From Lachnospiraceae bacterium P6B14 (GTDB taxonomy: Bacteria > Bacillota > Clostridia > Lachnospirales > Lachnospiraceae): a stretch of 64,000 bases of DNA. Shown piece after piece: positions 36,035-55,021 of the stretch. The notes under the pieces are model-generated. The model made no database searches. It was not told where the DNA came from and saw only the letters and a program-made list of their open reading frames with translations. Both the position numbers and the translations under genes were made by a program. Where the stretch lies: positions 1 to 64,000 of the forward strand of contig JHWZ01000013.1 of assembly GCA_000687695.1 (NCBI GenBank), read 5' to 3'. Numbering within the stretch: the first letter of the stretch is position 1; each line of letters opens with the position of its first letter.

Positions 36035-36051
36035 GACTCCCCAAATACCCC

Positions 36052-36080: not shown

Positions 36081-36101
36081 CTATATGTTTGGAGGAGTAT
36101 T

Positions 36102-39701: not shown

Positions 39702-39727
39702 CATATAATGCGACCTGAAAAAAACTC

Positions 39728-39813
39728 TTGACACATTCGGTTTCATATGTTATGATACATAGCGTTGAGGCAAAGGCGTCTCGGAGAAATCCGGGGCGCC
39801 TTTTACTTTTTTT
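39728..39813 (+). promoter_or_regulatory. nitrogen-type promoter + hairpin leader ahead of purF (copy 1)
   Basis: TTGACA (39728-39733), 17-bp spacer, TATGAT (39751-39756). Eight bases later comes GTTGAGGCAAAGGCG, a 13-bp hairpin (39772-39784 with 39791-39803, loop AGAAAT) followed by TTTTACTTTTTTT and directly the ribosome binding site. The leader is therefore a terminator-like hairpin ahead of purF. The same unit precedes amt (41357) and asnB (52894). Confidence 0.75.
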
Positions 39814-39823
39814 GGAGGAAATC

Positions 39824-41317
39824 ATGAATTCCATTCACGAAGAATGCGGGGTGTTCGGAGTGTATGCAGATACGGCCTACGCAGTTGCGAAGGATGTTTA
39901 CTACGGTCTGTACTCACTTCAACATCGCGGACAGGAAAGCTGTGGCATCGTAGTATGTGACGACGGCTTATTCTTCTCACACAAGGATCTCGGAGAGGTT
40001 CGTACTGTCTTTGACGGAGAGACACTGGACAAGCTCCCCACGGGGACGATGGGTATAGGGCATGTCAGATACTCGACGACAGGCGGTGACGGGAGGAATA
40101 ACTGTCAGCCTATGGAGGTCAACCACCAGAAGGGTAGGATGGCTCTTGCGCACAACGGAAATATCAGTAACGCTTTTGAGCTTAGGAGTGAACTCGAGCT
40201 CGGCGGCGCTATATTTCATTCAACCTCAGATACGGAGATCATAGCTTATCTTGTGACGAGAGAGAGGCTCGTTCATCCGTCGATCGAGGAAGCGGTGCTT
40301 GCGACGATGTCTCATCTGGAGGGTGCGTATTCGCTCGTGCTGATGTCCGCGACTAAGCTTATCGCCGCTCGTGATCCTCATGGTTTCAGGCCACTTTGTT
40401 ATGGAAAAAAGGACGACGGTCACTATGTTGTAGCGTCGGAGAGCTGTGCACTGGAGGCGGTGGGAGCCGAGTTTATCAGGGACTTGAGTCCCGGCGAGGT
40501 TCTGGTCTTCGGACAGTCCGATGAAAAAGCATTTTCATCTGCGCCTGCCAGAAACGGTGTATCCATCACAAAGGAAGCACCGGGCATCATAAGCTATATG
40601 GGTCATGTACAAAAGAAAGAAAAAAAGACATGCATATTCGAGTATATCTACTTTGCCAGACCGGACTCGGTAATTGACGGTGTATCCGTACATGAAGCCA
40701 GGCTCCGTGCCGGAAGGATATTGGCGAGAAATGATTCGGAGAGTATCGCCGATGTGGTAGTAGGTGTACCGGACTCAGGGCTCGATGCAGCTCTCGGGTA
40801 TTCTTTGGAATCAGGTATACCTTATGGCATAGGCCTTATTAAAAATAAATATATTGGAAGAACTTTCATCTCTCCCACTCAGGAGGAGAGAGTGAATCAG
40901 GTACGGATCAAGCTTAATCCGGTCCGTTCGACTGTAGAAGGGAAGAGGATTATTCTCATAGATGACTCCATTGTCCGAGGTACAACCAGCGGACACATAG
41001 TAAAACTCCTTAGAGAAGCGGGAGCAAAGGAGATACATATGCGTATCTCCGCGCCTCCGTTTCTGCATCCGTGTTACTACGGAACAGATATCGATTCGGA
41101 GGAAAACCTCATCGCCTGTCATCACTCGGTTGATGAGATCGCAGAGCTCATAGGAGCAGATTCTCTAAGTTATTTACCGGTTGATTCGCTTCACGAGTTG
41201 ATCGGAAGTAATGACTTTTGTAACGCATGTTTTACAGGGGCGTATCCTACGCCGGTGCCCGAAAATACGGAGAAAAATCGGTTTGAACAACCTCTTTCCA
41301 AGAGGAATAATAAGTGA
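39824..41317 (+). CDS. purF: amidophosphoribosyltransferase
   Basis: A 497-aa PurF, first step of purine synthesis: glutamine + PRPP to phosphoribosylamine. Starts at 39824 after TTTGGAGG. The short propeptide MNSIHEE precedes the catalytic Cys in ECGVFGVYA. The glutaminase domain has HRGQESCGI and GHVRYSTTGG; the PRTase domain has the PRPP loop IILIDDSIVRGTTS. Cys residues in CIFEYIYFARPD, CYYGTD and FCNACF match the Bacillus-type iron-sulfur enzyme. No other purine genes adjoin it; instead it shares a leader with amt and asnB, so it appears to be controlled with nitrogen genes. Confidence 0.93.
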   Translation: MNSIHEECGVFGVYADTAYAVAKDVYYGLYSLQHRGQESCGIVVCDDGLFFSHKDLGEVRTVFDGETLDKLPTGTMGIGHVRYSTTGGDGRNNCQPMEVNHQKGRMALAHNGNISNAFELRSELELGGAIFHSTSDTEIIAYLVTRERLVHPSIEEAVLATMSHLEGAYSLVLMSATKLIAARDPHGFRPLCYGKKDDGHYVVASESCALEAVGAEFIRDLSPGEVLVFGQSDEKAFSSAPARNGVSITKEAPGIISYMGHVQKKEKKTCIFEYIYFARPDSVIDGVSVHEARLRAGRILARNDSESIADVVVGVPDSGLDAALGYSLESGIPYGIGLIKNKYIGRTFISPTQEERVNQVRIKLNPVRSTVEGKRIILIDDSIVRGTTSGHIVKLLREAGAKEIHMRISAPPFLHPCYYGTDIDSEENLIACHHSVDEIAELIGADSLSYLPVDSLHELIGSNDFCNACFTGAYPTPVPENTEKNRFEQPLSKRNNK

Positions 41318-41356
41318 ATAAATATTTGATAATTTTTAACAAGTGTAAAAAAATAG

Positions 41357-41440
41357 TTGACAAAATAGTTTAACTATGTTATGATGTGTTTCGTTGAGGC
41401 AAGGGCGTCTCGGTTTTGTGACCGAGGCGCCTTTTGTTTT
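41357..41440 (+). promoter_or_regulatory. nitrogen-type promoter + hairpin leader ahead of amt (copy 2)
   Basis: TTGACA (41357-41362), 17-bp spacer, TATGAT (41380-41385). The spacer contains the palindrome ATAGTT-T-AACTAT (41366-41378). Then GTTGAGGCAAGGGCG and a 13-bp hairpin (41401-41413 with 41422-41434, loop TTTTGTGA), then T-rich sequence. The stem matches the purF copy with one U-G replaced by U-A. Confidence 0.75.
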
Positions 41441-41470
41441 ATACAAAAAAAAGAAACGGAGGATGATAGT

Positions 41471-43237
41471 ATGGACGATTTAATTCAGCTGATGGACGGA
41501 AAACTTTTTGGAGTCTGGTTCCTTATCGGCGCAGCACTCGTCTTTTGGATGCAGGCGGGATTTGCAATGGTGGAGTCAGGATTTGCCAGGGCAAAGAATG
41601 CCGGCAATATTCTGATGAAGAACCTGATGGACTTCTGTATCGGGTGCGTGGTATTTATCCTGATCGGGTTTGGCCTTCTCCTGGGGGAAGATATGGTCGG
41701 ACTGATCGGACAGCCCGGACTTGATATTTTTACAAATTATGCGAACTTCGATTGGTCAAACTTCGTGTTCAACCTCGTGTTCTGCGCGACCACAGCGACC
41801 ATCGTTTCGGGAGCGATGGCAGAGAGGACAAAGTTCCTCAGCTACTGTGTTTATTCAGCAGTTATCTCAGCACTTATCTACCCGATCGAGGCACACTGGA
41901 TCTGGGGCGGCGGCTGGCTTGCCGAGATGGGCTTTCATGATTTTGCAGGGTCATGTGCCATCCATATGGTCGGCGGTATCGCAGCCCTCGTGGGAGCGAT
42001 CATGGTCGGCCCGCGTATCGGTAAGTTTGAGAGAGATAAAAACGGCAAGGTTATCAAGGTTAACGCCTTCCCCGGTCACAACCTGGTGATCGGCGCCCTG
42101 GGTGTATTCATCCTGTGGCTCGGTTGGTACGGATTCAACGGTGCGGCATGTACCACAACGGAGCAGCTCGCATCAGTGTTTGTAACAACCACTATCGCAC
42201 CTTCAGTTGCGACTGTAATATGTATGATCTTTACCTGGATCAGATATGGCAAGCCGGATGTTTCGATGTGTCTGAACGCATCACTTGCAGGATTGGTTGC
42301 CATCACTGCTCCATGTGATGTAACAGATGCTACGGGATCTATTGTTATCGGTGCTGTTGCAGGACTTTTGGTAATCTTCGGTGTATGGCTGCTTGATCAC
42401 AAGCTTCATATAGACGACCCGGTTGGTGCCGTAGCGGTTCATATGATGAATGGTATCTGGGGTACCATTGCAACAGGACTTTTTGCTACAGCAAGTGCAC
42501 CGGGCTTTGAGCTCGCAGGTATCAAGGAAGGTCTTTTCTACGGAGGAGGCTTCGAGCAGCTGTGGATCCAGTTGGTAGGTTTTGCAAGTGTTGCTGCTTG
42601 GGCAGCGATCGGAATGCTTATCGTATTCGGTATCATCAAGCTTATATTTGGCTTGAGGGTTAGCGAGGAAGAAGAGCTCGAGGGTCTCGACCTTACCGAG
42701 CATGGTCTGGCAAGTGCTTACTCAGGTTTCTCCATCATGGATGTATCCGCAGGTGGAATGATCGCAAACGAGAATACAAACCTCGGTGTTGCGGCGTATG
42801 AGGATGCGAGTGAGGCGATGCGAAACGCGGCGGTTCCGGTTGAAAATGTTGCAAAGACACTCGAAGGAACTATCCCGGATTCGGGTATTTATAAGGTGGT
42901 TATCATCACCAAGCTGTCGCGCTATGACAAGATGAAGAGAGCGCTTAACAGCCTCGGTGTAACCGGTATCACCGTTACGCAGGTCAGCGGTTGCGGTATC
43001 CAGAAGGGTGCCGGCGAGATGTACCGTGGAGTCGAGATGGATATGACACTCCTTCCAAAGATCAAGCTGGAGGTAGTAGTCAGCGGAATCCCGGTAGACA
43101 GCGTGATCGAGGCTGCAAAGAAGACTCTCTATACCGGAAAGATCGGCGATGGAAAGGTCTTTGTATATCCTGTAACACGTGTCGTAAAGATCCGTACAGG
43201 CGAGGAAGATTTCGCGGCTCTGCAGGATGTAGAATAA
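41471..43237 (+). CDS. ammonium transporter fused to a PII regulator (Amt-GlnK)
   Basis: A 588-aa fusion. Residues 1 to about 410 are an Amt channel (spans throughout; GAMAERTKFLSYCVYSA, WGGGWLAEMGFHDFAGSCAIHMVGG, LGWYGFNGA). After a linker, residues about 473-588 are a PII domain: IITKLSRYDKMKRAL, T-loop Tyr in GEMYRGVEMD near 518 and the signature TGKIGDGKVFVYPV...KIRTGE. PII normally blocks Amt when glutamine is ample and 2-oxoglutarate low; here sensor and channel are one chain. Start at 41471 after ACGGAGG. Shares its leader type with purF and asnB. Confidence 0.9.
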   Translation: MDDLIQLMDGKLFGVWFLIGAALVFWMQAGFAMVESGFARAKNAGNILMKNLMDFCIGCVVFILIGFGLLLGEDMVGLIGQPGLDIFTNYANFDWSNFVFNLVFCATTATIVSGAMAERTKFLSYCVYSAVISALIYPIEAHWIWGGGWLAEMGFHDFAGSCAIHMVGGIAALVGAIMVGPRIGKFERDKNGKVIKVNAFPGHNLVIGALGVFILWLGWYGFNGAACTTTEQLASVFVTTTIAPSVATVICMIFTWIRYGKPDVSMCLNASLAGLVAITAPCDVTDATGSIVIGAVAGLLVIFGVWLLDHKLHIDDPVGAVAVHMMNGIWGTIATGLFATASAPGFELAGIKEGLFYGGGFEQLWIQLVGFASVAAWAAIGMLIVFGIIKLIFGLRVSEEEELEGLDLTEHGLASAYSGFSIMDVSAGGMIANENTNLGVAAYEDASEAMRNAAVPVENVAKTLEGTIPDSGIYKVVIITKLSRYDKMKRALNSLGVTGITVTQVSGCGIQKGAGEMYRGVEMDMTLLPKIKLEVVVSGIPVDSVIEAAKKTLYTGKIGDGKVFVYPVTRVVKIRTGEEDFAALQDVE

Positions 43238-43265
43238 GATGTGATGTAAAAAAATACATATATAG

Positions 43266-43297
43266 GAGGACATCGGTTGACGGTGTCCTCTTTTTTT
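43266..43297 (+). terminator. intrinsic terminator after amt
   Basis: GAGGACATCG-GTTGA-CGGTGTCCTC, a 10-bp stem (one wobble), followed by seven T. Confidence 0.88.
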
Positions 43298-43305
43298 AGT
43301 ATAAT
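43277..43305 (+). promoter_or_regulatory. promoter nested in the amt terminator
   Basis: TTGACG (43277-43282) lies in the loop and descending arm of the terminator; 17 bp on is TATAAT (43300-43305). It would drive natAB, whose start is 37 bp downstream. Confidence 0.55.
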
Positions 43306-43341
43306 CAGAGAGTTGACATTAAAAAAACAAAGAGGAGGTTT

Positions 43342-44262
43342 ATGTCAATGCTACTTGAAGCGAAAAAGTTAAACAAGAGCTTTGGAGAAAAGCATGTCCT
43401 TAAAGATGTGGAGTTCTCCGTTAAAAGCGGACAGGCGCTGGGATTACTTGGTCGAAACGGCGCAGGAAAAACGACGACCATAAGAATTCTCATGGATGTG
43501 TTCGGAGCTGATTCGGGTGAGATTTTACTCGATGGTAAGCCTATCGACCACAAAAGTGTGACAAAGGGGTATCTTCCGGAGGAGAGAGGCCTGTATCCGA
43601 AGAAAAAAATAGGTGATCAGCTTGTCTATCTCGCGAGACTGAAAGGCATGAGCAAGTCCGAAGCCGTAGCCGGTGTCGACAAATGGTTAAAAAAGCTTGG
43701 TATGCTCCAGCATAGAGATCAGAGGCTCGATACTCTTTCAAAGGGTAATCAGCAAAAGATTCAGCTCGTTACGGCAGTTATTCATGATCCCGAGATCGTG
43801 ATACTCGATGAGCCCTTCTCAGGACTTGATCCTGTAAACGCGATGGTTCTCGAGGATGTGGTAAAGAGTCAGATTGATAAAGGAAAGATAGTTCTCTTTT
43901 CCAGTCACCAGATGAATTATGTCGAGGAGTTCTGCGACAACATCGCTATCCTGAACGACGGACATATCGTGCTCGATGGCGAGATTCGTGAGATAAAAAG
44001 AAGCTACACCAGAGACAAGCTCGTTATCAAAAGTGAAAAAGCAGAGGATATTCAGAAGGCTTTTGGCGATGATTGCAAGCTGAAAGAAGACGGTTCTCTT
44101 ATTTTAAAAATGTCAAGTCCCGATGATAAAAAGCAGCTTATGCAGAAGATCGCATCCGAATATGATGTGGATGAGATCCGTGTATATGAGCCGTCGATGA
44201 ATGATATATTCGTTGAGTATACCGGAGAAGATAAGGGAGGTGATGACAGTGAAACAGTTTAA
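43342..44262 (+). CDS. natA: NatA-like ABC ATPase
   Basis: A 306-aa ATPase: Walker A GRNGAGKTTT, the NatA/YhaQ-type motif GYLPEERGLYPK, signature LSKGNQQKIQ, Walker B IVILDEPFSGLD and H-loop FSSHQM. The C-terminal 90 residues form an accessory domain ending PSMNDIFVEYTGE. NatAB in Bacillus extrudes Na+ or alcohols/cations; the substrate here is uncertain. Ribosome binding site GAGGAGG. Overlaps the permease gene. Confidence 0.85.
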   Translation: MSMLLEAKKLNKSFGEKHVLKDVEFSVKSGQALGLLGRNGAGKTTTIRILMDVFGADSGEILLDGKPIDHKSVTKGYLPEERGLYPKKKIGDQLVYLARLKGMSKSEAVAGVDKWLKKLGMLQHRDQRLDTLSKGNQQKIQLVTAVIHDPEIVILDEPFSGLDPVNAMVLEDVVKSQIDKGKIVLFSSHQMNYVEEFCDNIAILNDGHIVLDGEIREIKRSYTRDKLVIKSEKAEDIQKAFGDDCKLKEDGSLILKMSSPDDKKQLMQKIASEYDVDEIRVYEPSMNDIFVEYTGEDKGGDDSETV

Positions 44263-45484
44263 GACCGTATTTGGATATGAGCTTATGACTCAGATTAAAA
44301 ATAAGGCTTTTATCGGTGTTACTATTTTCCTCGTAGTTGTCATCGCCGGAGCTTTGTTTTTGCCTCGTATATTTGCTTCCGACTCGTCAAATGAGGGATC
44401 GGAGAAAGAGGGTAAAACCGCAAAGCTTGCTATCCTGGTTGAGGGTGACGTGGATAAAGAGCTGGCAGAGCAGGTTTTTACAGAGGAAGCTCAGGCACAA
44501 GACCGCGAGCTCGCAGTGGAAACCAGTCTTGATGCTCTCAAAGAAAAGGTTATGTCGGGTGATTATGTTTGCGGATATGCCATCCATGACCTGAAGAATT
44601 ATACTTATTATGTGGAAACACTGAGTGTATATGATACAAATGAAGCAAGTAATGCCGCAATGATGAGGCTGAATTATTATACTATGATGAAGCAGAGTGG
44701 CATGAGTCTTGACGAGATAAAAAAGGCAGCGGATATTACTATCGAGGGCGTACCTGAGGTACTCGGAAACGATCAGTCGCAGAATTATTTCTATACATAT
44801 ATCATGATATTTGCGCTTTACATGATCATCCTTCTTTACGGACAGATGGTTGCTACAAGTGTTGCGAGCGAGAAGAGCTCTCGCGCGATGGAGGTTTTGA
44901 TAACATCGGCGAAGCCTGTCTCTCTGATGTTCGGAAAGATACTCGCTGCATGCTCGGCCGGTATGGGACAGCTGATCCTGATATTCGGAACTGCGTTTGT
45001 ATGTTACAACGTAAATAAGGAATATCTGGAGGGCATATTTATCTTCAATTCGATATTCAATATTCCGGCAAGTATGATACTGTTTATGCTTTTGTTCTTC
45101 CTGCTGGGATTCCTTCTGTACGCTATGATGTTCGGTGCCATCGGCTCCATGGCTACAAAAGTAGAGGATATAAATACACTTCAAACACCCGTGACTATGT
45201 TGTTTGTGATAGCTTTTATGATCGTTATTTTTGGAATGAACGGAGATGTTAATTCACCTATCATGGTGGTGGCATCTTATATACCGTTTACCTCACCGAT
45301 GGCTATGTTTACGCGAGTTGTAATGGGAGATATAATGTGGTATGAGATTGCTGCATCTGTTGCGATCCTGGTCGCATCGACGATTGGTATCGGTATCCTT
45401 TCAGCAAGGATCTACCGCGCAGGTGTACTCCATTATGGAAAAGCACCGAAGTTTATGGAGATGTTAGCTAAGGCAAAGAACTGA
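44249..45484 (+). CDS. natB: NatB-like ABC-2 permease
   Basis: A 411-aa permease with one N-terminal span (GVTIFLVVVIAGALFLP), a large extracellular domain (about 40-190) and about five spans at the end, the ABC-2 NatB layout. Contains SVASEKSSRAMEVLITSAKP, typical of the family. I start at GTG 44249, eight bases after GGGAGG; ATG 44243 is too close to that site. It overlaps natA by 14 bp. Confidence 0.8.
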   Translation: MKQFKTVFGYELMTQIKNKAFIGVTIFLVVVIAGALFLPRIFASDSSNEGSEKEGKTAKLAILVEGDVDKELAEQVFTEEAQAQDRELAVETSLDALKEKVMSGDYVCGYAIHDLKNYTYYVETLSVYDTNEASNAAMMRLNYYTMMKQSGMSLDEIKKAADITIEGVPEVLGNDQSQNYFYTYIMIFALYMIILLYGQMVATSVASEKSSRAMEVLITSAKPVSLMFGKILAACSAGMGQLILIFGTAFVCYNVNKEYLEGIFIFNSIFNIPASMILFMLLFFLLGFLLYAMMFGAIGSMATKVEDINTLQTPVTMLFVIAFMIVIFGMNGDVNSPIMVVASYIPFTSPMAMFTRVVMGDIMWYEIAASVAILVASTIGIGILSARIYRAGVLHYGKAPKFMEMLAKAKN

Positions 45485-45490
45485 AAAACC

Positions 45491-45519
45491 TTGCCTTTTG
45501 CCCGAACTTGTGTTATAAT
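45491..45519 (+). promoter_or_regulatory. promoter of trpEG
   Basis: TTGCCT (45491-45496), 17-bp spacer, TATAAT (45514-45519), followed at once by a 16-bp palindrome TACAAAA-TT-TTTTGTA (45521-45536) that could be an operator. No leader peptide with Trp codons or T-box is seen. Confidence 0.6.
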
Positions 45520-45555
45520 TTACAAAATTTTTTGTAGGAGGCAAAGACTCTTATC

Positions 45556-47025
45556 ATGACTATTTTTCCATCTTTGGAGCAGGTCAGGGATTTCGCTTCA
45601 AAAAAAGAATATGATATCGTACCTATAAGCATGGAGATTCTGTCGGATTTTATCACTCCGATAGAGGCCATGCGTATACTTCAGAATATCTCGACTCATT
45701 GCTTTATGCTTGAGTCGGCTCTCGCTCAGGAGCATTGGGGACGCTATACATTTATGGGCTTTGATCCGAAGCTCGATATCACCTGTATCGACGGACATCT
45801 CGAGGCGGGCGATCTTTTCAATATCGAAACGGACAACCCCTCGGCATTTTTACGTGATATCCTGAAAAAATACCGCGCACCCCGTCTCCCGGAGTTGCCT
45901 CCGTTTACGGGCGGCCTGGTAGGCTACTTTGCTTTTGACTATCTGGGGTATTCGGAGCCTACGATCCGTGTTGATGTGGAAGATGAGGAAGCGTTCAAGG
46001 ATGTCGACCTGATGCTTTTTGATAAGGTCATTGCCTTCGATCATGTAAAACAAAAGATAATACTGATCGTAAACATAAAGCTCGAGGATATCGAGACCTC
46101 ATATAACAAGGCAGTTGTCGAGCTGAATCAGATAAAGGATCTTCTTAAAAACGGCGAGAAAAAACAAGACTGCTCCGGTCATATCACCGGCGAGGTTGAG
46201 GCTCTTTTTTCGGAAGAAGAATACTGCGAGATGGTTGAAAAAGGAAAGAGCTACATACGCGAGGGAGATATCTTCCAGATCGTACTTTCCAACCGTCTTT
46301 CGGCGCCGTTTGAGGGTAGTCTTTTAAACACTTATCGTATGTTACGTACCATCAATCCGTCTCCGTATATGTTCTATTTTTCGGGAACGGATGTCGAGGT
46401 TGCGGGCGCGTCACCGGAGACACTTGTGAAGCTCGAGGATGGTATTCTTCATACCTTCCCTCTGGCGGGTTCACGTCCGAGAGGTACCACTGATGAGGAA
46501 GACAAGGCGTTGGAAAAAGAGCTTCTTGCTGATGAAAAAGAGCTCGCTGAGCACAACATGCTTGTTGATCTCGGAAGAAATGACATCGGTCGTATTTCTA
46601 AGTTCGGAACCGTAGAGGTTGAGACGCTACGAGAGGTGCAACGTTACTCACACATCATGCACATCGGCTCGACTGTCCGCGGTGAGATACGTGATGACAA
46701 GGACGCTCTTTCTGCCATCGAGGCGATACTTCCCGCCGGAACACTTTCCGGTGCGCCGAAGATCCGCGCATGCCAGCTTATCGGCGAACTTGAGAACAAC
46801 AAAAGAGGTATTTACGGCGGAGCGATCGGTTACATCGATTTCACCGGAAATATGGATACGTGTATCGCGATCCGTATCGCATACAAGAAAAATAACAAGG
46901 TCTTCATCCGAAGCGGAGCGGGCATCGTCGCAGACAGTGTGCCCGAGACCGAGTATGTGGAGAGCCTGAATAAAGCGCGTGCCGTGATCACTGCGCTGGA
47001 GCGTGCAGAGGAGGAAGACAAATGA
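45556..47025 (+). CDS. trpE: anthranilate synthase component I
   Basis: A 489-aa chorismate-using enzyme that makes anthranilate with TrpG ammonia. TrpE character: PIEAMRIL and the inhibitor region CFMLESA; catalytic core [28 protein letters not shown]-like [41 protein letters not shown] and [12 protein letters not shown]. Normal length. PabB is the alternative, but trpG follows directly and the LES motif supports TrpE. The rest of the trp pathway is not here. Ribosome binding site TAGGAGG. Confidence 0.9.
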
Positions 47026-47636
47026 TTCTTTTGATAGATAACTATGACAGCTTTTCCTACAATTTGTACCAAATGATAGGTTCAATAGATCCCGATATCA
47101 AGGTGGTTAGAAATGACGCACTGACAACATCCGAGATCAGAGATATGCACCCGACCTGTATCATTCTTTCACCGGGACCGGGTCGTCCCGTTGACGCAGG
47201 TATTTGCGAGGATGTGGTGCGTGATCTGTCGGGAGAGTTCCCTATTCTCGGAGTATGTCTCGGTCACCAGGCGATATGTGAAGCCTTCGGTGCGACAGTA
47301 ACATATGCAAAAACTCTGATGCACGGCAAGCAGTCAGAGACAGAGTTTGATACTGACTGTCCTGTATTTGCATCGTTACCGAAGAGTGCTCCGGTAGGAA
47401 GATATCATTCACTTTCAGTTGATAAAAAAACAATTCCGGACGAGCTTAAGATAACAGCAACTGCTGATGACGGAGAGGTTATGGCGCTGTGTCACAAAAC
47501 ACTCCCCGTATACGGACTCCAGTTTCATCCGGAATCAATTCTTACCCCATATGGTCGTCAGATGCTCGAAAACTTTTTAGAGGAGAGTCGTCGTTTCAAG
47601 GCTCGTCAGTATGATGCGAGCAACTATGGAATCTGA
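47022..47636 (+). CDS. trpG: anthranilate synthase component II (glutamine amidotransferase)
   Basis: A 204-aa class I amidotransferase: IDNYDSFSYNL, SPGPGRP, nucleophile in GVCLGHQ and the His-Glu pair FHPESILT. It supplies ammonia to TrpE. The ATG overlaps the trpE stop (ATGA). It could also serve PabB. Typical length with a short C-terminal extension. Confidence 0.92.
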   Translation: MILLIDNYDSFSYNLYQMIGSIDPDIKVVRNDALTTSEIRDMHPTCIILSPGPGRPVDAGICEDVVRDLSGEFPILGVCLGHQAICEAFGATVTYAKTLMHGKQSETEFDTDCPVFASLPKSAPVGRYHSLSVDKKTIPDELKITATADDGEVMALCHKTLPVYGLQFHPESILTPYGRQMLENFLEESRRFKARQYDASNYGI

Positions 47637-47664
47637 TCAGCAAGGTTAATAAGGGAGTTGCATC

Positions 47665-49194
47665 ATGAAACGTAGAGGGATTCTGTCTGTTTTTGTATGT
47701 CTTGTTTTGGTATTTTCTTTGATACCAACATATATTCCAAACGAGGTTATTTCAAGAGCATCATCTGCTCAAGATTTCAAGAATAATATAGCGACTGTTT
47801 CATCAAACAACATCGGAACCGAGCTCAAGGACTACGCTGTTCATTGCATACAGGCGTCTGTTACTGATCCAAAAGTAGGTTCCATGGGCGGAGAGTGGGC
47901 GGTACTCACACTCGGAAAAACAGGAAGTGCTACAGATGAGTTCAAAAACAAATACCGCGCAAGTGTAAAATCGACGGTTTCATCGGCAACTAACGGAAAG
48001 CTGAACTCATCAAGGGCGACAGATAATGAACGAGTTATGATCGCGCTCTCTGCTATCGGGGACAGTGTGGTAGTGGACGGCGTCGACCTCGCGGATCCGC
48101 TCTATGATTTTTCATATACGACAAAGCAGGGGATAAACGGAGCCATATATGGGCTTATAGCACTCGACATGTCGGGTTACTATAAGGTAACTGAGGCTGA
48201 GAACCAGACGAGTGCAGAGGATCCGGTTTCCGTCAGAGACGACCTGCTCAGATTTATTCTGGGTAGAGAGTTGTCCGGAGGTGGATGGGTACTTGGAGCA
48301 GGAACAAATCCCGATCCTGATATAACGTTTATGGTTATCCAGGCGCTCGCTCCTTACTACACGAAGGATGCTTCGGTTAAGGCAGCGGTTGACAGAGCAC
48401 TCGCAGTTATGAGCGAAAAGCAGGATGAAAACGGCGGATTTTCTACTGCGTCTTCCATGGGTGCTACAGCATCATCTGAGTCTGTATCACAGGCGATCAC
48501 GGCACTTGCTTCGCTCGGCATCGATCCGGGAACTGATACCCGTTTTATTAAAAATAACAAGTCACTTGTTGATAACCTTCTCTCCTATAAGGTAAGTGGA
48601 GGGTTTGCACATACGGGAACTGCATATAATCAAATGGCTACCGAGCAGGCTGCTTATGCGTGTGTGGCGCTGTGGTTACTGGACAGTGGCAAGCATTTAT
48701 ATGACAGGTCGGGTGAGATCTACAGAGCACCGGCAGGAACTCCGACGCCGATTCCCTCACCGACTATAACACCATCTGCAGCGCCGACTATAGTGCCGAC
48801 TGCCACACCGAGTGCGACTCCTACATCAGACCCCACGCCGACAGTATCACCTCAGACAAAAATAAACGGTGTAACATATGAGGAAGGTAAGTCAGGTGCG
48901 GTAATAAAGAAGATTCCGAATAAAGTGGCAGTGAGTATTAAAAGTACTGTTGAAATAAACGGAAAAAATGTAAAAGTGACAACACTCGCTAAGGGTGCAT
49001 GTAATGGTTTGTCTAAAACAAAGAAGCTTAAGATAACAACAAAGTATCTGAAAAAAGTTGAGAAGGGATCACTTTCAGGACTCAATATAAACGCAGTTAT
49101 ATACCTGCCAAAGAAAAAGTATAAAGCATATAAAAAACTGATTATAAAGAAGGGGACCGGTTACAAAAAAACAATGAGGATCAAAAAGATCTAA
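47665..49194 (+). CDS. secreted alpha/alpha-toroid protein (prenyltransferase-like, transcobalamin alpha-like)
   Basis: A 509-aa secreted protein: signal peptide (MKRRGILSVFVCLVLVFSL). Residues about 40-355 form repeated helical pairs of the squalene-cyclase/prenyltransferase type (GINGAIYGLIALDMSGYY, GGGWVLGAG, ENGGFSTASSMGATASSESV, EQAAYACVALWLLD). This is the same alpha/alpha barrel as the N-terminal domain of animal intrinsic factor and transcobalamin. A Thr/Pro linker leads to a Lys-rich C-terminal domain (LRR_5-like or Ig-like; KTKKLKITTKYLKKVEKG). Followed by a DUF4430 protein and an ECF transporter, so it may capture a vitamin outside. Confidence 0.7.
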   Translation: MKRRGILSVFVCLVLVFSLIPTYIPNEVISRASSAQDFKNNIATVSSNNIGTELKDYAVHCIQASVTDPKVGSMGGEWAVLTLGKTGSATDEFKNKYRASVKSTVSSATNGKLNSSRATDNERVMIALSAIGDSVVVDGVDLADPLYDFSYTTKQGINGAIYGLIALDMSGYYKVTEAENQTSAEDPVSVRDDLLRFILGRELSGGGWVLGAGTNPDPDITFMVIQALAPYYTKDASVKAAVDRALAVMSEKQDENGGFSTASSMGATASSESVSQAITALASLGIDPGTDTRFIKNNKSLVDNLLSYKVSGGFAHTGTAYNQMATEQAAYACVALWLLDSGKHLYDRSGEIYRAPAGTPTPIPSPTITPSAAPTIVPTATPSATPTSDPTPTVSPQTKINGVTYEEGKSGAVIKKIPNKVAVSIKSTVEINGKNVKVTTLAKGACNGLSKTKKLKITTKYLKKVEKGSLSGLNINAVIYLPKKKYKAYKKLIIKKGTGYKKTMRIKKI

Positions 49195-49219
49195 GGATAC
49201 ATTTTGATCAGGAGAGTCT

Positions 49220-50032
49220 ATGTATTTTTTAAAGCGGAACTGGAAGAATCTGATTGTCTTTGCGCTGTGTGTGATCTGCCTGGTACTGTGGATATGCACC
49301 ATCAGGACCGGCTCGGTTGATCAGACACAACGTATAAGCCGCTCTGTGGCGGGCATGGAAACACCCATACCTGCTGCTTCCGGTTCTGCTGTTTTTAATA
49401 GTCCGGAATTAAGTCAGTCAGATCCCGCCACGATAAGCTCAAATGAAAGCGGTACATCCGACAACAACCCGGATAATAATGACGATAAAGCAAAGCAAAA
49501 GGACAATAAAAACAAGAATAATAAAGATAAAGAAAAGCCGGGTAAAATAAAAAAAACCGAGACCACTCCCGCTCCGACGGAAAAACCGAAGCCTGTAAAA
49601 AAAGATGACCAAGCAGAAGATAAGGACTGGTTTTATGTATACTTATCCATCGATTGTAAGAAGATACTTGATCATATGGATGATCTGACCGAGGGCCTGG
49701 AGAATTACGTGGGCGACGGAACTATTCTGAAAAAAACAAAGGTGAAATGCTATAAGGGTGAATCTGTCTGGGATGTGCTCCTACGCGAGTGTAAGGCCAG
49801 GGGAATAAACCTCGAATCAGAGTATACGGCTACATACGGAGCCGTTTATGTAGAGGCGATAAACAACATAGCAGAGTTTGACTGCGGTGAGCTGTCCGGG
49901 TGGTGTTATAGTGTGGATGGATGGTATCCGAACTACGGAGCGTCGAAATATATATTGAAAGAATCGGAAGAGATAAAGTGGAGATACACATGTGATCTCG
50001 GAAGAGATTTAGGTGCAAACGTAAACAAATAA
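49220..50032 (+). CDS. membrane-anchored DUF4430 protein (transcobalamin beta-like)
   Basis: A 270-aa protein: one N-terminal span (LIVFALCVICLVLWICT), a low-complexity Asn/Lys/Pro spacer (about 60-135), then a DUF4430 domain (about 138-268) with SVWDVLLRECKARGI and LSGWCYSVDGWYPNYGASKY. DUF4430 is the fold of the C-terminal domain of transcobalamin/intrinsic factor, which closes over cobalamin. Paired with the alpha/alpha-toroid protein just upstream (26 bp apart) and ECF genes just downstream. B12 or a related corrinoid is the inferred substrate. Confidence 0.75.
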   Translation: MYFLKRNWKNLIVFALCVICLVLWICTIRTGSVDQTQRISRSVAGMETPIPAASGSAVFNSPELSQSDPATISSNESGTSDNNPDNNDDKAKQKDNKNKNNKDKEKPGKIKKTETTPAPTEKPKPVKKDDQAEDKDWFYVYLSIDCKKILDHMDDLTEGLENYVGDGTILKKTKVKCYKGESVWDVLLRECKARGINLESEYTATYGAVYVEAINNIAEFDCGELSGWCYSVDGWYPNYGASKYILKESEEIKWRYTCDLGRDLGANVNK

Positions 50033-50053
50033 AAAAGGAGGCCGCTCGAGACC

Positions 50054-50863
50054 ATGCAGCTTAGGCATCCCCTGGTGGAATTCATAGGGTATATAGCACT
50101 CTTACTATATATAAGCTTTTCACTTAACCCGATCGGGATAGGGATTGTTTTGGTCGGCCTGCTCGTGATAAAACCCAAGTCTGTTCCGGTTGTAGCTATT
50201 ATTATTCTTCTCACTACCATAGTGAATCCATTAGTCAATCATAAGGGTGAAACCTATCTTTTTTATCTGAATGATAATATCATAACACTTGAGTCTGTCA
50301 TATACGGAGTTCTTTTAGGATGCCAGGTCAGTTGCCTGATACTGGGCTTCAAGCTCATGAGTGACAACATGACCTCCGAAAAAATAATCTCTGTAACGTC
50401 ATATCTTTTTCCACCAGTTTCACTGCTGTTATCAATGGCAGTCAGATCTCTTGGAAAGTATTCAAGAAAAACAAAGGAAGTATACCTGTATCAGAAAACC
50501 TTCTCGGAAAAACCCGGTTTCTTTCGGATGATTATTATCTGTATAAATACTTTCTCGATCATGGTGGGATGGATACTTGAAAACTCAATAGAAACAGCCG
50601 ACTCTATGGTCTGCAGAGGATACGGTTCGACCAGAAGAACGACCTTCAGGAAAGTCAGGATAAACAGAAATGACATAATAGAAATATTACTGATTATATC
50701 CTTGTTTACAGCTTTTTATATAACGATCCCGGAAACAATAATCGTGCCCTACTTAGATATCGGTATCGATGTTATAAATATAATTGCAGTAAGTGTTTTC
50801 ATAGTATATGAGGTGTTCAATGAAAGATTTCGATGTGAATATAAAACGACTTTCAATAGATGA
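50054..50863 (+). CDS. ecfT: ECF transporter T component
   Basis: A 269-aa EcfT with about five to six spans and the coupling-helix motif DSMVCRGYGSTRR (family A-R-G pattern, here C-R-G). Couples the ATPases to the S component in the membrane. Overlaps the ATPase gene by 44 bp. Ribosome binding site AAAAAAGGAGGCC. A dedicated T gene beside its own ATPase and S gene indicates a group I, substrate-specific ECF system. Confidence 0.85.
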   Translation: MQLRHPLVEFIGYIALLLYISFSLNPIGIGIVLVGLLVIKPKSVPVVAIIILLTTIVNPLVNHKGETYLFYLNDNIITLESVIYGVLLGCQVSCLILGFKLMSDNMTSEKIISVTSYLFPPVSLLLSMAVRSLGKYSRKTKEVYLYQKTFSEKPGFFRMIIICINTFSIMVGWILENSIETADSMVCRGYGSTRRTTFRKVRINRNDIIEILLIISLFTAFYITIPETIIVPYLDIGIDVINIIAVSVFIVYEVFNERFRCEYKTTFNR

Positions 50864-52208
50864 TCATGATATCCTTCATGATATCAGTCTTTCTATCGAA
50901 GACGGGATCACCGTGATCGCGGGAGCAAGCGGAGCGGGAAAGACTCAGTTTGTCAGACGGCTCGTGCCGAAACTCTCGCAGATAGGAAAGTTGGATGGCA
51001 GTATCACCTACGGTGGTGAGCCGATCGAAAGTATCAGGCCGGGAACCATAGGATTTATATCACAGAATCCGGACAACCAGATTGTATGTGATAAGGTATG
51101 GCATGAGCTCGCCTTCGGTCTCGAGTCGATCGGGATGAAGAGTGATCTGATCAGAAACAGGGTTGCCGAGGTGGCGACAGTGTTTGGTATCGATCCCATA
51201 TTTGATCAGGCTACGGATACCCTTTCGGGCGGACAGAAGCAGAAGGTCGTACTCGCATCGGTACTGTGCATGGATCCCGATGTAGTTGTTATGGATGAGC
51301 CATCCTCCATGCTCGATCCGATAGCGACGGTTGAGTTTTTCGAGCTGGTAGTGAGGTTAAACCGTGACCTCGGAGTTTCATTTATAATAGTTGAACATAA
51401 CCTCGATTACATACTTGACTATGCAGATAAAACTGTTTATATAGAAGACGGAACTGTCAAGGAAAAAGAATTAAAAACAACAAAACAAAAGCTTATCGAT
51501 AGGCTCGGAGATCCAGAGAAAGCATACGAAGTAACTCAGAGTATAACAGATACAAGTAGAGTTATTTATAAAGAAAAATCCATCAGAAAATCCTTTGGCG
51601 GATTCACATTAAATATACCTACGTTCGAGATACATGAAGGCATCACGTGCATCATCGGACCGAACGGAGCAGGTAAATCAACACTTGCAAAATACCTTTC
51701 GGGCTTCTACGGAAAAAAGAAGCTGGATTCCGTAAGCCTCCTTCCTCAGGATGTACTGATGATCTTTGTAAAGGATACCGTTAAGGAGGAGCTCGAGTGT
51801 ATAGCTCCCATACCGGACTATCTGGATGCAGAGCTAAAGCATCTGTATGATAAGCATCCACTTGATATCTCCGGAGGAGAGCAGCATCTCGTTGCACTTG
51901 CGAAGGTGATGCTGAGAGGATCTAAGCTCACAATACTTGACGAGCCTACAAAGGGAATGGACGAAGACTATAAAGAGCGTGTGAAGGTCCTGATAGAAAA
52001 GGGCTTTGAGGGACGCGACGTCATTATCATAACTCATGATCTTGAGTTTGTGGCTGAGATTGCAGATGATGTAATATTTATGTTCGGCGGAGATATCGCA
52101 TCGCAGGGTGAGGCACACGATGTACTCTGCTCCAACACGATGTACAAGCCGACAATTTCTAAACTATGGAAAGGTGCTCTTAGATGGCAGGAAGTAAAAG
52201 TATACTGA
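50820..52208 (+). CDS. ecfA: fused ECF transporter ATPase (EcfA-EcfA')
   Basis: A 462-aa protein with two ATPase domains. First: Walker A GASGAGKTQF (about residue 36), signature LSGGQKQKV, Walker B VVVMDEPSSMLD, H-loop IVEHNLD. Second: Walker A GPNGAGKSTL (about 280), signature ISGGEQHLV, Walker B TILDEPTKGMD, H-loop ITHDLE. Both sites look functional, so one chain replaces the usual EcfA/EcfA' pair. Start at 50820, after GAGGTG. Overlaps the S gene by 25 bp. Confidence 0.9.
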   Translation: MKDFDVNIKRLSIDDHDILHDISLSIEDGITVIAGASGAGKTQFVRRLVPKLSQIGKLDGSITYGGEPIESIRPGTIGFISQNPDNQIVCDKVWHELAFGLESIGMKSDLIRNRVAEVATVFGIDPIFDQATDTLSGGQKQKVVLASVLCMDPDVVVMDEPSSMLDPIATVEFFELVVRLNRDLGVSFIIVEHNLDYILDYADKTVYIEDGTVKEKELKTTKQKLIDRLGDPEKAYEVTQSITDTSRVIYKEKSIRKSFGGFTLNIPTFEIHEGITCIIGPNGAGKSTLAKYLSGFYGKKKLDSVSLLPQDVLMIFVKDTVKEELECIAPIPDYLDAELKHLYDKHPLDISGGEQHLVALAKVMLRGSKLTILDEPTKGMDEDYKERVKVLIEKGFEGRDVIIITHDLEFVAEIADDVIFMFGGDIASQGEAHDVLCSNTMYKPTISKLWKGALRWQEVKVY

Positions 52209-52807
52209 TCGATAATTATTACCTGATCAGTCTGATCATCATACTCATCGGAATAGTGGTCGTAGGTCTCTATTATCGCAGGCGTATACTCGCCAGAGAG
52301 ATCGTGCTGATCACTTCCCTTTCTGCGCTTATTGCGATCTCCAGAGGTGTGATGGCATGGGCCCCGGAGGTAAAGCCGGTGTCAGCTCTCATTATCACGG
52401 TAGCATCCATATTCGGCTCGGTTCCGGGTATGCTGATCGGAGCGCTGTCTGCATTTCTTTCGAACTTTTTTATCGGGCAGGGTCCGTGGACACCGTTCCA
52501 GATCATCGCGTGGGCGCTCGTCGGATACCTCGCGGGATTCATAAAAACAGAGAACAAGGTAGTACCAATGTTACTTTCGATACCACTTGTTCTCTGTGTT
52601 TACTCGGTTCTTGTCAACATCGCATCAGCAATCCTCATTACCGGGAGCCTCACCTGGGACTCCTTTGTTGCGATGGAGATATCAGGCTTTCCGTTGGACC
52701 TGGTGCACACGGGATTTACGGTTGTCATGATATTTTTTATATGGAAACCGTTCAGGAAAAAGCTTATGCGTATGCACACGAAGTACAGGATACTCGCGAG
52801 ATTTTAA
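52184..52807 (+). CDS. ECF transporter S component (substrate-binding)
   Basis: A 207-aa membrane protein with about six spans: LISLIIILIGIVVVGLYY, then REIVLITSLSALIAISRGVM, FGSVPGMLIGALSAFLSNFF, GQGPWTPFQIIAWALVGYL. It resembles S components grouped with cobamide transport (CblT/CbrT-like), where WAPEVKPVSA is typical, but the specificity is not proven. The neighbouring transcobalamin-like proteins support a corrinoid. No cobalamin riboswitch is seen upstream of the operon. Confidence 0.75.
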   Translation: MAGSKSILIDNYYLISLIIILIGIVVVGLYYRRRILAREIVLITSLSALIAISRGVMAWAPEVKPVSALIITVASIFGSVPGMLIGALSAFLSNFFIGQGPWTPFQIIAWALVGYLAGFIKTENKVVPMLLSIPLVLCVYSVLVNIASAILITGSLTWDSFVAMEISGFPLDLVHTGFTVVMIFFIWKPFRKKLMRMHTKYRILARF

Positions 52808-52865
52808 ATAACATCATGAACGTTGTATTTAGAGTGCGATTATAGGGGTTTAGGGTATATTATTA

Positions 52866-52893
52866 GGGAAATTAGTAAAACTGAAATTTTCCC
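52866..52893. repeat. inverted repeat abutting the asnB -35 box
   Basis: GGGAAA (52866-52871) and TTTCCC (52888-52893) with AT-rich extension, ending one base before TTGACA. Could end the ECF transcript or bind a regulator. Confidence 0.4.
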
Positions 52894-52980
52894 TTGACAA
52901 AATTGTTTAAGTATGGTATTATGTCATGCAGTGAGGCAAAGGCGTCTCAGAGGAAACTCTGGGACGTCTTTGTCTTTCTT
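52894..52980 (+). promoter_or_regulatory. nitrogen-type promoter + hairpin leader ahead of asnB (copy 3)
   Basis: TTGACA (52894-52899), 17-bp spacer with GTTTAAGTATG, TATTAT (52917-52922), then GTGAGGCAAAGGCG and a 16-bp hairpin (52937-52952 with 52957-52972) closed by a GAAA tetraloop, followed by TCTTTCTTT. Same order as the purF and amt copies; the 3' arm changed (CGTCTTTG instead of CGCCTTT) while pairing stayed. Confidence 0.75.
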
Positions 52981-53001: not shown

Positions 53002-54702
53002 ATGTGTGCGATATTGACTTATGCCCGCACGGATGTGACTGAAAGCTTCTTCACGGACATGCTGATGAAGACGCAGTCGAGGGGCCCGGATATGACCGAC
53101 CATATCAAGACAAAGGGAGGTTGGATCGGATTCAACCGACTGTCGATCATGGGACCGGAGCCGACCGGAATGCAGCCCTTCACACACCGCGGAAACGCAG
53201 TTGTCTGCAACGGAGAGGTTTACGGATACGGACCGCTGAAGGAATATCTGGCATCGATTGGGTATCCGTTTGAGAGCGGAAGCGACTGCGAGCTGCTGAT
53301 GCCGCTTTATGAAAAGCTCGGCACGGCGATGTTCGGAATCCTGGATGCGGAGTTTGCATGTGTCATCTATGACGGAGAGAAAAATGAGTTCATAGCCGCA
53401 AGAGATCCGATTGGAATCAGACCTTTGTACTACGGCTACGACGATGACGGATATATCATTTTTGCATCAGAGCCTAAAAACATGGTGGGGGTAGTTAAAG
53501 AAATAAAGCCGTTTCCGCCGGGACATTTTTACAAGGATGGAGAGTTCATCTGCTACCGCAATATGACGACAGGCGGTGTGTATGCAAAGGATGAATGGCA
53601 TCCCGGTAAGGCCGGACAGGGCAGACACTTAAGCGGAGTCGGAAACGCCGAGAGCCGAAAGACTCAGGGCAGCATGACACTGTCGAACGGGATCGGGATT
53701 CATGACGAGGGAGTCGACGCAATCTGCGAGGGAATCCACGACAGACTTTTAAACGGTATCAGAAAGAGACTTACCGCGGACCAGCCGGTCGGATTCCTGC
53801 TCTCGGGAGGACTTGATTCTTCACTGGTATGCGGGGCGGCGGCGAAGCTTTGGGACGGCCCGATCGAGACATTCGCAATCGGAATGGACATCGATGCGAT
53901 CGATCTTAAGTACGCAAGACAGGTTGCCGATTACATCCATTCAAATCACCATGAGGTGATCATCACAGCAGACGATGTCATCGAGGCTGTCGAGCCAGTA
54001 ATACAGGCGCTGGCGACATACGACATCACGACGATCAGAGCGTCGATCGGAATGTATCTGCTGTGTAAGTGGATCAGAGAAAATACAGATATAAAAGTGC
54101 TCCTGACAGGAGAAATATCCGATGAGCTTTTCGGATATAAATACACAGACTTTGCACCGGATGCTGAGGCGTTCCAGGAGGAGTCGAGAAAGAGGATAAG
54201 GGAGCTTCATATGTACGATGTGCTCCGCGCCGACAGGTGCATCAGCGTAAACTCACTTGAGGCGAGGGTGCCATTTGGAGATCTGGATTTCGTCGATTAT
54301 GTAATGGCGATCGATCCCGAGAAAAAGATGAACACCTACGGCATCGGAAAGTATCTTTTGAGACACGCTTTCGAAAAGGATGAGCTGATACCTCATGAGA
54401 TACTGATGAGAGAAAAGGCAGCATTCTCAGACGCGGTTGGTCACTCGCTCAGAGACGACCTGATGGACCTCGCCGAGAGGACTTATACAGATGAAGCTTA
54501 TGAGGCGGGCATTCAAAAATATGATCATGCGAAACCGTTTACAAAAGAATCGCTTTTGTATCGTGATATTTTTGAAAAGTATTATCCGGGGCAGTCGCAC
54601 ATGGTCGACGATTTCTGGATGCCGAATAAGTCATGGGAAGGTTGCGATGTAAATGATCCGTCCGCTCGCGTATTATCAAACTACGGCGCTAGCGGAGAGT
54701 AA
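53002..54702 (+). CDS. asnB: asparagine synthase (glutamine-hydrolysing)
   Basis: A 566-aa AsnB: catalytic Cys2 (MCAIL), glutaminase motifs SRGPD, GFNRLSIMG, NGEVYGY; synthetase PP-loop FLLSGGLDSSLV near residue 268, LLTGEISDELFGY and SLEARVPFGD. It makes asparagine from aspartate, ATP and glutamine. Between the domains is an odd stretch rich in Gly, His and Lys (KAGQGRHLSGVGNAESRKT, about residues 200-225), probably a flexible linker. Ribosome binding site TAGGAGG. It lies in the nitrogen cluster before glnN and gltBD. Confidence 0.93.
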   Translation: MCAILTYARTDVTESFFTDMLMKTQSRGPDMTDHIKTKGGWIGFNRLSIMGPEPTGMQPFTHRGNAVVCNGEVYGYGPLKEYLASIGYPFESGSDCELLMPLYEKLGTAMFGILDAEFACVIYDGEKNEFIAARDPIGIRPLYYGYDDDGYIIFASEPKNMVGVVKEIKPFPPGHFYKDGEFICYRNMTTGGVYAKDEWHPGKAGQGRHLSGVGNAESRKTQGSMTLSNGIGIHDEGVDAICEGIHDRLLNGIRKRLTADQPVGFLLSGGLDSSLVCGAAAKLWDGPIETFAIGMDIDAIDLKYARQVADYIHSNHHEVIITADDVIEAVEPVIQALATYDITTIRASIGMYLLCKWIRENTDIKVLLTGEISDELFGYKYTDFAPDAEAFQEESRKRIRELHMYDVLRADRCISVNSLEARVPFGDLDFVDYVMAIDPEKKMNTYGIGKYLLRHAFEKDELIPHEILMREKAAFSDAVGHSLRDDLMDLAERTYTDEAYEAGIQKYDHAKPFTKESLLYRDIFEKYYPGQSHMVDDFWMPNKSWEGCDVNDPSARVLSNYGASGE

Positions 54703-54910
54703 TATTAGCGCGAGCAGAAAAAAATGTTAGCGCGAGCGCTATGGTAGCTTTATATCCTCGCTCGCGCATATGAAGCGCTCCTCGGATATAAACTACCGCC
54801 GCTCGCGCGGGAACACTAAAGATTAGTTTGTTTATCCGACAAGCAAAGATTAACAACGAGGGTTTGTTTGTACCAATTGGAGTATAAACTCCACATGTAA
54901 CCAAAAAGCA
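54703..54910 (+). repeat. asnB-glnN spacer, part 1: 79-nt palindrome at 54730-54808
   Basis: GCGCGAGCG (54730-54738) pairs with CGCTCGCGC (54800-54808). Inside, GGTAG and TTTATATCC (54743-54757) pair with GGATATAAA and CTACC (54784-54797). The loop holds GCGC-N7-GCGC. Just before it, TTAGCGCGAGC is repeated directly (54706 and 54728). After it, 54809-54910 is A/T-rich and holds a small hairpin GGAGT-ATAA-ACTCC (about 54879-54892). No ORF is supported and there is no T run, so this is not a normal terminator. Confidence 0.75.
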
Positions 54911-54990
54911 TGTGCAAGCGGCAGGAGATATATTCCGAGGAGTGCTTTAATGCACGAGCGAGGAATATATACTCCGATCGCGCTTGCACA
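54911..54990 (+). repeat. asnB-glnN spacer, part 2: 80-nt palindrome
   Basis: TGTGCAAGCG (54911-54920) pairs with CGCTTGCACA (54981-54990). The inner stem GGAGATATATTCC (54924-54936) pairs with GGAATATATACTCC (54962-54975) with one bulged A, and the centre GTGC-TTTAAT-GCAC closes. It has the same plan as the palindrome at 54730 (GC outer, AT inner, short inner hairpin). It ends 31 bp before the glnN start and would lie in its leader RNA. Confidence 0.75.
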
Positions 54991-55021
54991 GGAAACTTTA
55001 GTAGAATAGGAGGAAATTATC

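Follow-up and report, generated by a model that had tools for sequence, protein, structure and literature searches.

The 64,000-nt window analysed here (positions 1 to 64,000 of contig JHWZ01000013.1 of Lachnospiraceae bacterium P6B14) carries three copies of a common promoter and attenuator unit, one each ahead of purF, of amt, which encodes an ammonium transporter with a P-II domain, and of asnB. This unit is very probably a transcription attenuator that is read by an ANTAR protein encoded just 3' of glnA in the same genome and predicted to bind the leader RNA. The hairpin, its covariation, the exclusive terminator, the promoter spacing, the gene content, and the co-occurrence and linkage with ANTAR genes were all computed in this work. 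The original prediction, made from the letters of the window, had described three promoter-leader units with a T-rich stretch just before the ribosome binding site (RBS) and read them as a shared, candidate nitrogen-control RNA or antiterminator site. All three units are found at purF, amt and asnB, and both hairpin conservation and gene content support that reading.

The leader unit and its copies in the genome

In each of the three units the promoter is followed by TGAGGCAANGGCGTCTC, the hairpin of a strong terminator, a run rich in T and an RBS. The elements and the genes behind them are as follows.

39728..39756, + strand: purF promoter; TTGACA (-35, 39728-39733), 17-nt spacer, TATGAT (-10, 39751-39756)
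39767..39782, + strand: purF antiterminator, P2-like; GAGGC, loop AAAGGC, GTCTC; the first 21 nt alone fold so, at -6.5 kcal/mol
39772..39813, + strand: purF intrinsic terminator with T tract; the loop plus 3' arm of the antiterminator serve as its 5' arm
39824..41317, + strand: purF, glutamine-using amidophosphoribosyltransferase; ATG at 39824; TIGR01134 above cut-off
41357..41385, + strand: amt promoter; TTGACA (-35, 41357-41362), 17-nt spacer, TATGAT (-10, 41380-41385)
41396..41411, + strand: amt antiterminator, from folding; GAGGC, loop AAGGGC, GTCTC
41401..41441, + strand: amt intrinsic terminator and T-rich tract, from folding
41471..43237, + strand: amt, ammonium transporter with a C-terminal P-II domain; ATG at 41471
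52894..52922, + strand: asnB promoter; TTGACA (-35, 52894-52899), 17-nt spacer, TATTAT (-10, 52917-52922)
52933..52948, + strand: asnB antiterminator; GAGGC, loop AAAGGC, GTCTC; also present before asnB of the relatives L128-L130
52938..52982, + strand: asnB intrinsic terminator and T-rich tract, from folding
53002..54702, + strand: asnB, glutamine-hydrolysing asparagine synthase; ATG at 53002

Exactly six perfect copies of TGAGGCAANGGCGTCTC occur in the 2.69-Mb genome (35 contigs), three in the window and three outside it (C2:184993, C2:192066 and C6:105180), where about 0.001 exact matches would be expected by chance for 16 fixed bases (an arithmetic estimate). The remaining 14 of the 20 pattern matches carry three mismatches, which is chance level, as a reversed-pattern control gave 31 matches with up to three mismatches. 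Each of the six copies is preceded by a TTGACA-N17-TANNAT promoter whose -10 box ends about 10 nt ahead of the antiterminator hairpin. Of the spacer bases that had been noted as common, GTTT and ATG, the ATG holds in all six copies and probably reflects a TGn extended -10 element, and the GTTT is confined to the three window copies. Behind the non-window copies are genes for a RelA/SpoT-domain protein, a Peptidase_C26/glutamine-amidotransferase-like protein and an S1-domain protein. A RelA/SpoT-domain protein behind a perfect leader copy is found at L023:1994-3043; such a target could tie nitrogen attenuation to alarmone signalling.

Two mutually exclusive hairpins

The first ~18 nt of the RNA, GAGGC-AANGGC-GUCUC, can fold as a 5-bp hairpin with a six-base loop. 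All six leaders of this genome have a hexaloop with A at its first and G at its fourth position (A1/G4), closed by a C:G pair. The published ANTAR signature consists of such a hexaloop with A1, G4 and a closing C:G pair, together with overlap with an intrinsic terminator (PMC3369931, PMC7496416), the closing pair coming from systematic evolution of ligands by exponential enrichment (SELEX) with NasR (PMC7496416); the overlap, too, is present here. When the first 21 nt are folded alone, the short hairpin forms in six of six leaders (-6.1 to -7.0 kcal/mol), whereas the full leaders favour the terminator, at -19.7 to -34.6 kcal/mol versus -11.8 to -16.5 kcal/mol with the short hairpin enforced. 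Because the 5' hairpin consumes the 5' arm of the terminator it would act as an antiterminator, and since the two structures use common bases they are mutually exclusive, as in a classic attenuator.

The 13-16-bp hairpin of the original prediction does exist and is this terminator; the exclusive ~18-nt hairpin had been overlooked, and the compensating stem changes that had been noticed, which do occur, belong to the terminator and not to the antiterminator. The statement that the unit matches no known riboswitch agrees with Rfam, which at gathering score gave no family anywhere in the window. With E values up to 10, a search of positions 39600-41700 only, the asnB leader lying outside, returned 13 matches, the best at E = 0.04 and all below the gathering scores.

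Conservation and covariation in relatives

A covariance model built from the six sites of this genome, with the terminator as its sole structure (model R1), was searched against 250 genomes of the family, this one included, at E<=0.001; the resulting counts are lower bounds. It found 68 sites in 54 of the 250 genomes, six of them being the training sites. The alignment (A3) was fitted to the terminator, so that the five antiterminator pairs were not known to the model as pairs. They are nevertheless paired in 93.2% of cases across the 68 sites, versus 27-64% in slid controls, and they show 40 double changes, where shuffles give 8.3 +/- 6.3 (0 of 500 shuffles reached as many), and a covariation of 0.321 against 0.189 in the shuffles, a control that takes no account of how the genomes are related. 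Pairing in the terminator reaches 91.5%, with 92 double changes. Among the stem variants are AAGGC/GUCUU, AAAGC/GCUUU, GAGGC/GUCUC, GAAGC/GCUUC and AAGAC/GUCUU, and the closing pair is C:G in 64 of 68 sites. An AANGGC loop is present in 61 of 68 (41 AAAGGC, 9 AAGGGC, 8 AAUGGC, 3 AACGGC), a conservation that is partly selection, as R1 was trained on AA(A/G)GGC. An A1/G4 hairpin of at least 4 bp is kept in 58 of 68 sites, so the hairpin is conserved in relatives, and a promoter score of at least 9 of 12 is found ahead of 58 of 68 sites, compared with 9 of 68 shuffled ones.

We considered whether AANGGC is kept merely as the base of the terminator and rejected this: at least 65 of 68 sites retain the terminator's G at the two loop G positions, while on the partner side C has changed to U in 10 and 8 sites. 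The pattern of variation also bears on a quite different explanation, a DNA operator at +1 in which a repressor would bind the inverted repeat and the terminator would be incidental. An inverted repeat at a narrow distance from the promoter is what such an operator would look like; its arms, however, vary between sites yet stay complementary, G-U is common (24 of 68 sites at the second antiterminator pair), the loop is asymmetric and conserved, and the bases concerned double as the 5' arm of a terminator that itself covaries. We therefore reject the operator as very improbable.

Upstream regions of asnB examined without the motif

The best 80 of 564 confirmed asnB relatives in named genomes, fetched by protein, provided a set in which up to 300 nt upstream could be examined blind to the motif, the criteria being a hairpin of at least 5 bp at +1 and a promoter score of at least 9. 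Loops of 3, 4, 5, 6, 7 and 8 nt were found at 1, 2, 1, 22, 1 and 10 loci, respectively. A1 and G4 are present in every one of the 22 six-base loops (19 AAAGGC, one AAGGGC, one AAAGAC and one AAUGAU, the last probably a chance occurrence), and at least five of the ten 8-nt loops are the identical hexaloop counted with its closing pair. A full scan, which demands A1, G4, a closing C:G pair, at least 4 bp, pairing with a terminator and a T run, succeeded in 30 of the 80 regions; the reverse strand yielded 3 and mononucleotide shuffles a mean of 0.16. Of the 30 loops, 23 are of the AANGGC type. In the nearest named relatives (L128-L130, one uncultured Lachnospiraceae and two rumen 'Eubacterium' metagenome-assembled genomes), whose asnB is 82-88% identical, the hairpin stands ahead of asnB in three of three. 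At two further asnB loci (L155 and L177), good promoters are followed by CGGC-AAAGGA-GUCG variants, in which A1 and G4 of the loop are kept and its last base is A.

Genes behind the leader

The nearest plausible frame behind each hairpin-positive site was taken as the downstream protein and assigned with Pfam, which gave 56 proteins; left out were the ten hairpin-lacking rows, L052 (no downstream frame) and the second L031 site (same gene). Genes that make, move or use glutamine or ammonium account for 49 of the 56, or 45 of 50 when this genome is excluded. They comprise 26 type III glutamine synthetases (GSIII), 10 class-II amidotransferases of the AsnB/PurF kind, 4 glutamate synthases, 3 ammonium transporters, 2 CTP synthases, 2 carbamoyl-phosphate synthase small chains, 1 Peptidase_C26 protein and 1 carbon-nitrogen hydrolase that resembles, in our interpretation, a glutamine-dependent NAD synthetase. 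Outside this class are seven proteins: a RelA/SpoT-like protein, an S1-domain protein, a diaminopimelate (DAP) epimerase, an aminotransferase, a PucR-like regulator, a Na/alanine symporter and one protein without a family. Thus the unit does not occur upstream of unrelated genes only, the outcome named beforehand as contradicting a role in nitrogen control.

This gene content also bears on another alternative, in which a strong promoter is followed by a partial terminator that is not regulated, or by a hairpin that stabilises the 5' end. The terminators of this genome do fold very stably, at the energies given above; a conserved hexaloop and a competing, covarying 5' hairpin would be needless for such an arrangement, and they stand before mainly one functional class of genes. 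This alternative, too, we consider far-fetched and reject.

Several single loci deserve mention beside this list. The Amt-P-II fusion (41471-43237) places a sensor domain within a target of the regulon. In the window, the GSIII gene at 55022-57130 lacks such a leader, though relatives have GSIII as their most frequent target (26 of 56); it may be transcribed by readthrough from asnB. A urease gamma subunit gene lies behind a weaker site with a 3-bp stem (L040), outside the 56.

An ANTAR protein encoded beside glnA

The original prediction had suggested a search for an ANTAR protein, and this genome has a single ANTAR match, at C13:68849-69484, directly after glnA (C13:67577-68794) and 4.8 kb past the right end of the window. 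The protein combines the Pfam domains Response_reg (receiver-like) and ANTAR. Its AlphaFold model (14 sequences) has a mean predicted local distance difference test (pLDDT) of 88 and a predicted template modelling (pTM) score of 0.65; the best Foldseek matches are Rv1626 (1s8n/1sd5), RNA-bound EutV (6ww6, TM 0.73), EutV alone (6wsh) and AmiR (1qo0), with Rv1626, EutV and AmiR ranking above ordinary receivers.

Opposite the acceptor Asp of Rv1626 the protein has Asn, and so it lacks a phospho-acceptor of the EutV type. None of 14 aligned ANTAR proteins has Asp at this position, which is occupied by Asn, Gly, Ala, Ser or Thr; the 14 are this protein and 13 of 21 extracted from 30 loci, the omitted ones being seven short models and the protein of L082, which retains the Asp. 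The N-terminal domain takes two shapes among the 14 (family loci L055-L084), one shared by this protein and that of L071 and another that is commoner. Phosphorylation of the ANTAR protein is thus unlikely, judging from its sequence, and from the missing acceptor Asp of the receiver-like domain we infer that something other than phosphorylation controls it. AmiR, for comparison, is controlled not by phosphorylation but by a partner protein that holds its receiver-like domain. Partner control as in AmiR would be a reasonable guess by analogy, with glutamine synthetase or the Amt-fused P-II domain as candidates.

Co-occurrence and linkage of leader and ANTAR gene

ANTAR matches and leader matches tend to be found in the same genomes. 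In the family, 53 of the 54 genomes positive with R1 have an ANTAR match versus 166 of the 196 others (p = 0.005). With a broader model built from the 68 sites (R2), 179 of 219 ANTAR genomes have a match versus 12 of 31 without ANTAR (p = 1.5e-6). Among 391 genomes of the class, which include this genome and G180, both in the R2 training set, R2 has matches at E<=1e-6 in 51 of the 196 that have ANTAR versus 2 of the 195 that lack it (Fisher p 1e-14), and at E<=1e-4 in 102 of 196 versus 20 of 195. All these statistics ignore shared ancestry. The genes are also linked: 20 of 48 class matches lie within 15 kb of an ANTAR gene, where chance would give about 1 in 100 by an arithmetic estimate, the sample being the best match of each of 47 genomes with a listed ANTAR position plus a second match in G557.

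In 26 of 27 class loci inspected, five of them from the family itself, an A1/G4 hexaloop of at least 3 bp is present, as picked by a script that selected the best candidate loop around the expected position; about 21 of the 27 precede GSIII or amt genes, as assigned by eye. Generic terminators were considered as the source of the model's matches and this was rejected. Of the 11 ANTAR-lacking class genomes inspected out of 20 with R2 matches (including G329, locus L258), eight have plain terminators and three have the antiterminator hairpin (G460, G291 and G532). Five of the 12 ANTAR-lacking family genomes with R2 matches were inspected as well. G202 has the hairpin, G199 has a stem with the loop GAAGGC (G in place of A1) before amt, G109 has a stem with the non-consensus loop AAACGC, and G186 and G064 have no hairpin.

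The few good hairpins in assemblies without a detected ANTAR gene are what one would expect if the same attenuator fold were read by another protein or by a small ligand. Set against this are the loop size, A1, G4 and closing C:G pair, all of which fit the ANTAR consensus, the co-occurrence and gene linkage, and the length of the hairpin, as 18 nt would be very small for a metabolite aptamer. We consider a reader other than the ANTAR protein improbable. Of the earlier suggestions, that of an ANTAR protein is supported, and the sensing of nitrogen state through a small molecule appears unlikely for a hairpin of 18 nt.

One hairpin or two

Among the 58 sites with an A1/G4 hairpin of at least 4 bp (again without the ten hairpin-lacking rows), 54 have a promoter score of at least 9, and in 50 of these 54 a gap of 5-13 nt separates the end of the -10 box from the stem. 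As the start site of transcription lies about 7 nt downstream of a -10 box, the stem sits at the 5' end of the RNA or close to it, and with the -10 box of the six leaders about 10 nt from the hairpin there is no room for a second one. The upstream P1 hairpin with its short linker, part of the published dual-hexaloop arrangement, is accordingly missing. Within ~50 nt upstream, 1 of 58 sites has another A..G hexaloop hairpin with a stem of 4 bp or more, versus a mean of 2.9 in mononucleotide shuffles; the corresponding numbers are 5 versus 7.7 for at least 3 bp and none versus 1.2 for at least 5 bp.

A leader of the canonical two-hairpin kind whose first hairpin was overlooked, either because transcription starts further upstream or because P1 is unusual, would reconcile these sites with what is published. 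Induction by EutV was ablated by deletion of P1 and drastically reduced by a change of the linker (PMC3369931), and NasR bound a single hairpin about tenfold more weakly (12 vs 1 uM; PMC7496416). Tandem attenuators in three genomes (L031, L093 and L097) indicate in addition that two hexaloops are possible on one RNA. The distance between -10 box and stem and the absence of any excess of upstream hexaloops over shuffles argue the other way, and we give the overlooked P1 a slim chance. The tandem attenuators themselves, found in 3 of 54 family genomes before GSIII genes (L093:445-555, L097:1943-2053 and L031:1428-1554), each have their own terminator and look like repeats of the unit, not like a P1-P2 pair; a class locus, L259, seemingly also has a second unit upstream.

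The published need for P1 and the weaker binding of a single hairpin count against a single-hairpin ANTAR attenuator, and so do several of our own observations. In ten of the 68 aligned sites no A1/G4 hairpin reaches 4 bp; these are probably terminators and nothing more. The hairpins of G460, G291, G532 and G202, and the GAAGGC stem of G199, occur in assemblies without a detected ANTAR gene. Two targets in this genome, the S1-domain and RelA/SpoT-like proteins, have no obvious role in nitrogen metabolism. Fifty of the 80 asnB regions fail the full scan, though at least two of them (L190 and L195) show the hairpin; asnB is not under this control in every relative. Finally, neither the shuffle comparison nor the co-occurrence statistics allow for kinship among the genomes.

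Proposed mechanism and relation to known systems

Based on these analyses we can outline how an ANTAR-read attenuator would work. RNA polymerase would start within a few bases of the hairpin, and the first ~18 nt would fold into the short hairpin with the loop A-A-N-G-G-C. An activated ANTAR protein would grip this hairpin as it emerges from the polymerase, making its 3' arm and loop unavailable to the downstream arm, so that the terminator is blocked and purF, amt or asnB is transcribed. Without activated ANTAR protein the stabler terminator would form and transcription would stop before the RBS. Readthrough would be expected to rise under shortage of fixed nitrogen or glutamine; the sign of the response is uncertain because the regulon holds both makers and users of glutamine.

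Nitrogen control by ANTAR antitermination is already known (PMC3369931), and several systems resemble the one proposed here. The EutV/eut leaders of Enterococcus faecalis share the A1/G4 hexaloop, the short stem, a second hairpin that overlaps the terminator and a REC-ANTAR protein; they differ in having two hairpins with a 5-12-nt linker, both of them needed, and a protein that dimerises on phosphorylation, where we find one hairpin at +1 and Asn for Asp. For NasR and the nasF leader of Klebsiella oxytoca, the selected RNAs likewise have the closing C:G, A1 and G4, and the genes concern nitrogen, but two hairpins are required for full affinity, and a nitrate-sensing protein controls the nas operon. 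AmiR, which acts on the amiE leader of Pseudomonas, is an ANTAR antiterminator with a structure among the top matches of our protein; its substrate is a dual hexaloop (PMC3369931). NitR of Clostridium acetobutylicum is described as an antiterminator of ammonia assimilation and C. thermocellum has an ANTAR gene in its ammonia-assimilation cluster, whereas the passage concerned in PMC4676874 mentions no one-hairpin RNA target for either. The nitrogen regulons of Ramesh et al. (2012; Desulfotomaculum and others) have ANTAR leaders before P-II, ammonium transporter, glutamine synthetase and glutamate synthase (GOGAT) genes, but were found with a dual-hairpin search model (PMC3369931), by which one-hairpin leaders would have been excluded by design. 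The unit described here would work like the dual-hexaloop ANTAR family and stands outside it for want of the second hairpin. We found no description of a one-hairpin ANTAR attenuator, or of this regulon, in the open-licence literature of PubMed Central (PMC).

Walshe et al. (2022; PMC8934654) report that the ANTAR dimer touches one hexaloop at a time and ask why both are needed; they expect single-hexaloop sites where the time limit set by the polymerase is absent and urge further work. The sites described here have a single hexaloop yet are located inside terminators. They thus offer many candidate natural single-hexaloop sites within terminators, so that the question of whether both hairpins are required becomes directly testable, and the narrow spacing from the start site may replace the recruitment hairpin. 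Tentatively, and with more doubt than conviction, we suggest that a single hexaloop at +1 suffices for ANTAR antitermination in vivo across Clostridia, and that an unphosphorylated receiver-like ANTAR protein reads nitrogen via a partner such as glutamine synthetase or P-II and gates a glutamine regulon. If this is true, the rule that both hairpins are required would be a special case. More generally, a nitrogen regulator, together with the genes it would control, is proposed for a large group of bacteria that record titles place in gut and rumen.

Neighbouring features of the window

Just 5' of the purF promoter ends a stretch (36018-39701) that encodes a hybrid histidine kinase with a 7TM (seven-transmembrane) sensor and an Hpt domain and, behind it, a protein with a receiver domain. 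An open frame of 509 aa at 47665-49194 has no Pfam match at E<=0.001. The intergenic region between asnB and the GSIII gene (54710-55010) is occupied by a dispersed palindromic repeat that holds two inverted-repeat pairs. Parts of it give 17 further alignments in this genome, at about ten places and with 74-90% identity, and from its sequence it looks like an element of the REP/MITE type (repetitive extragenic palindrome or miniature inverted-repeat transposable element).

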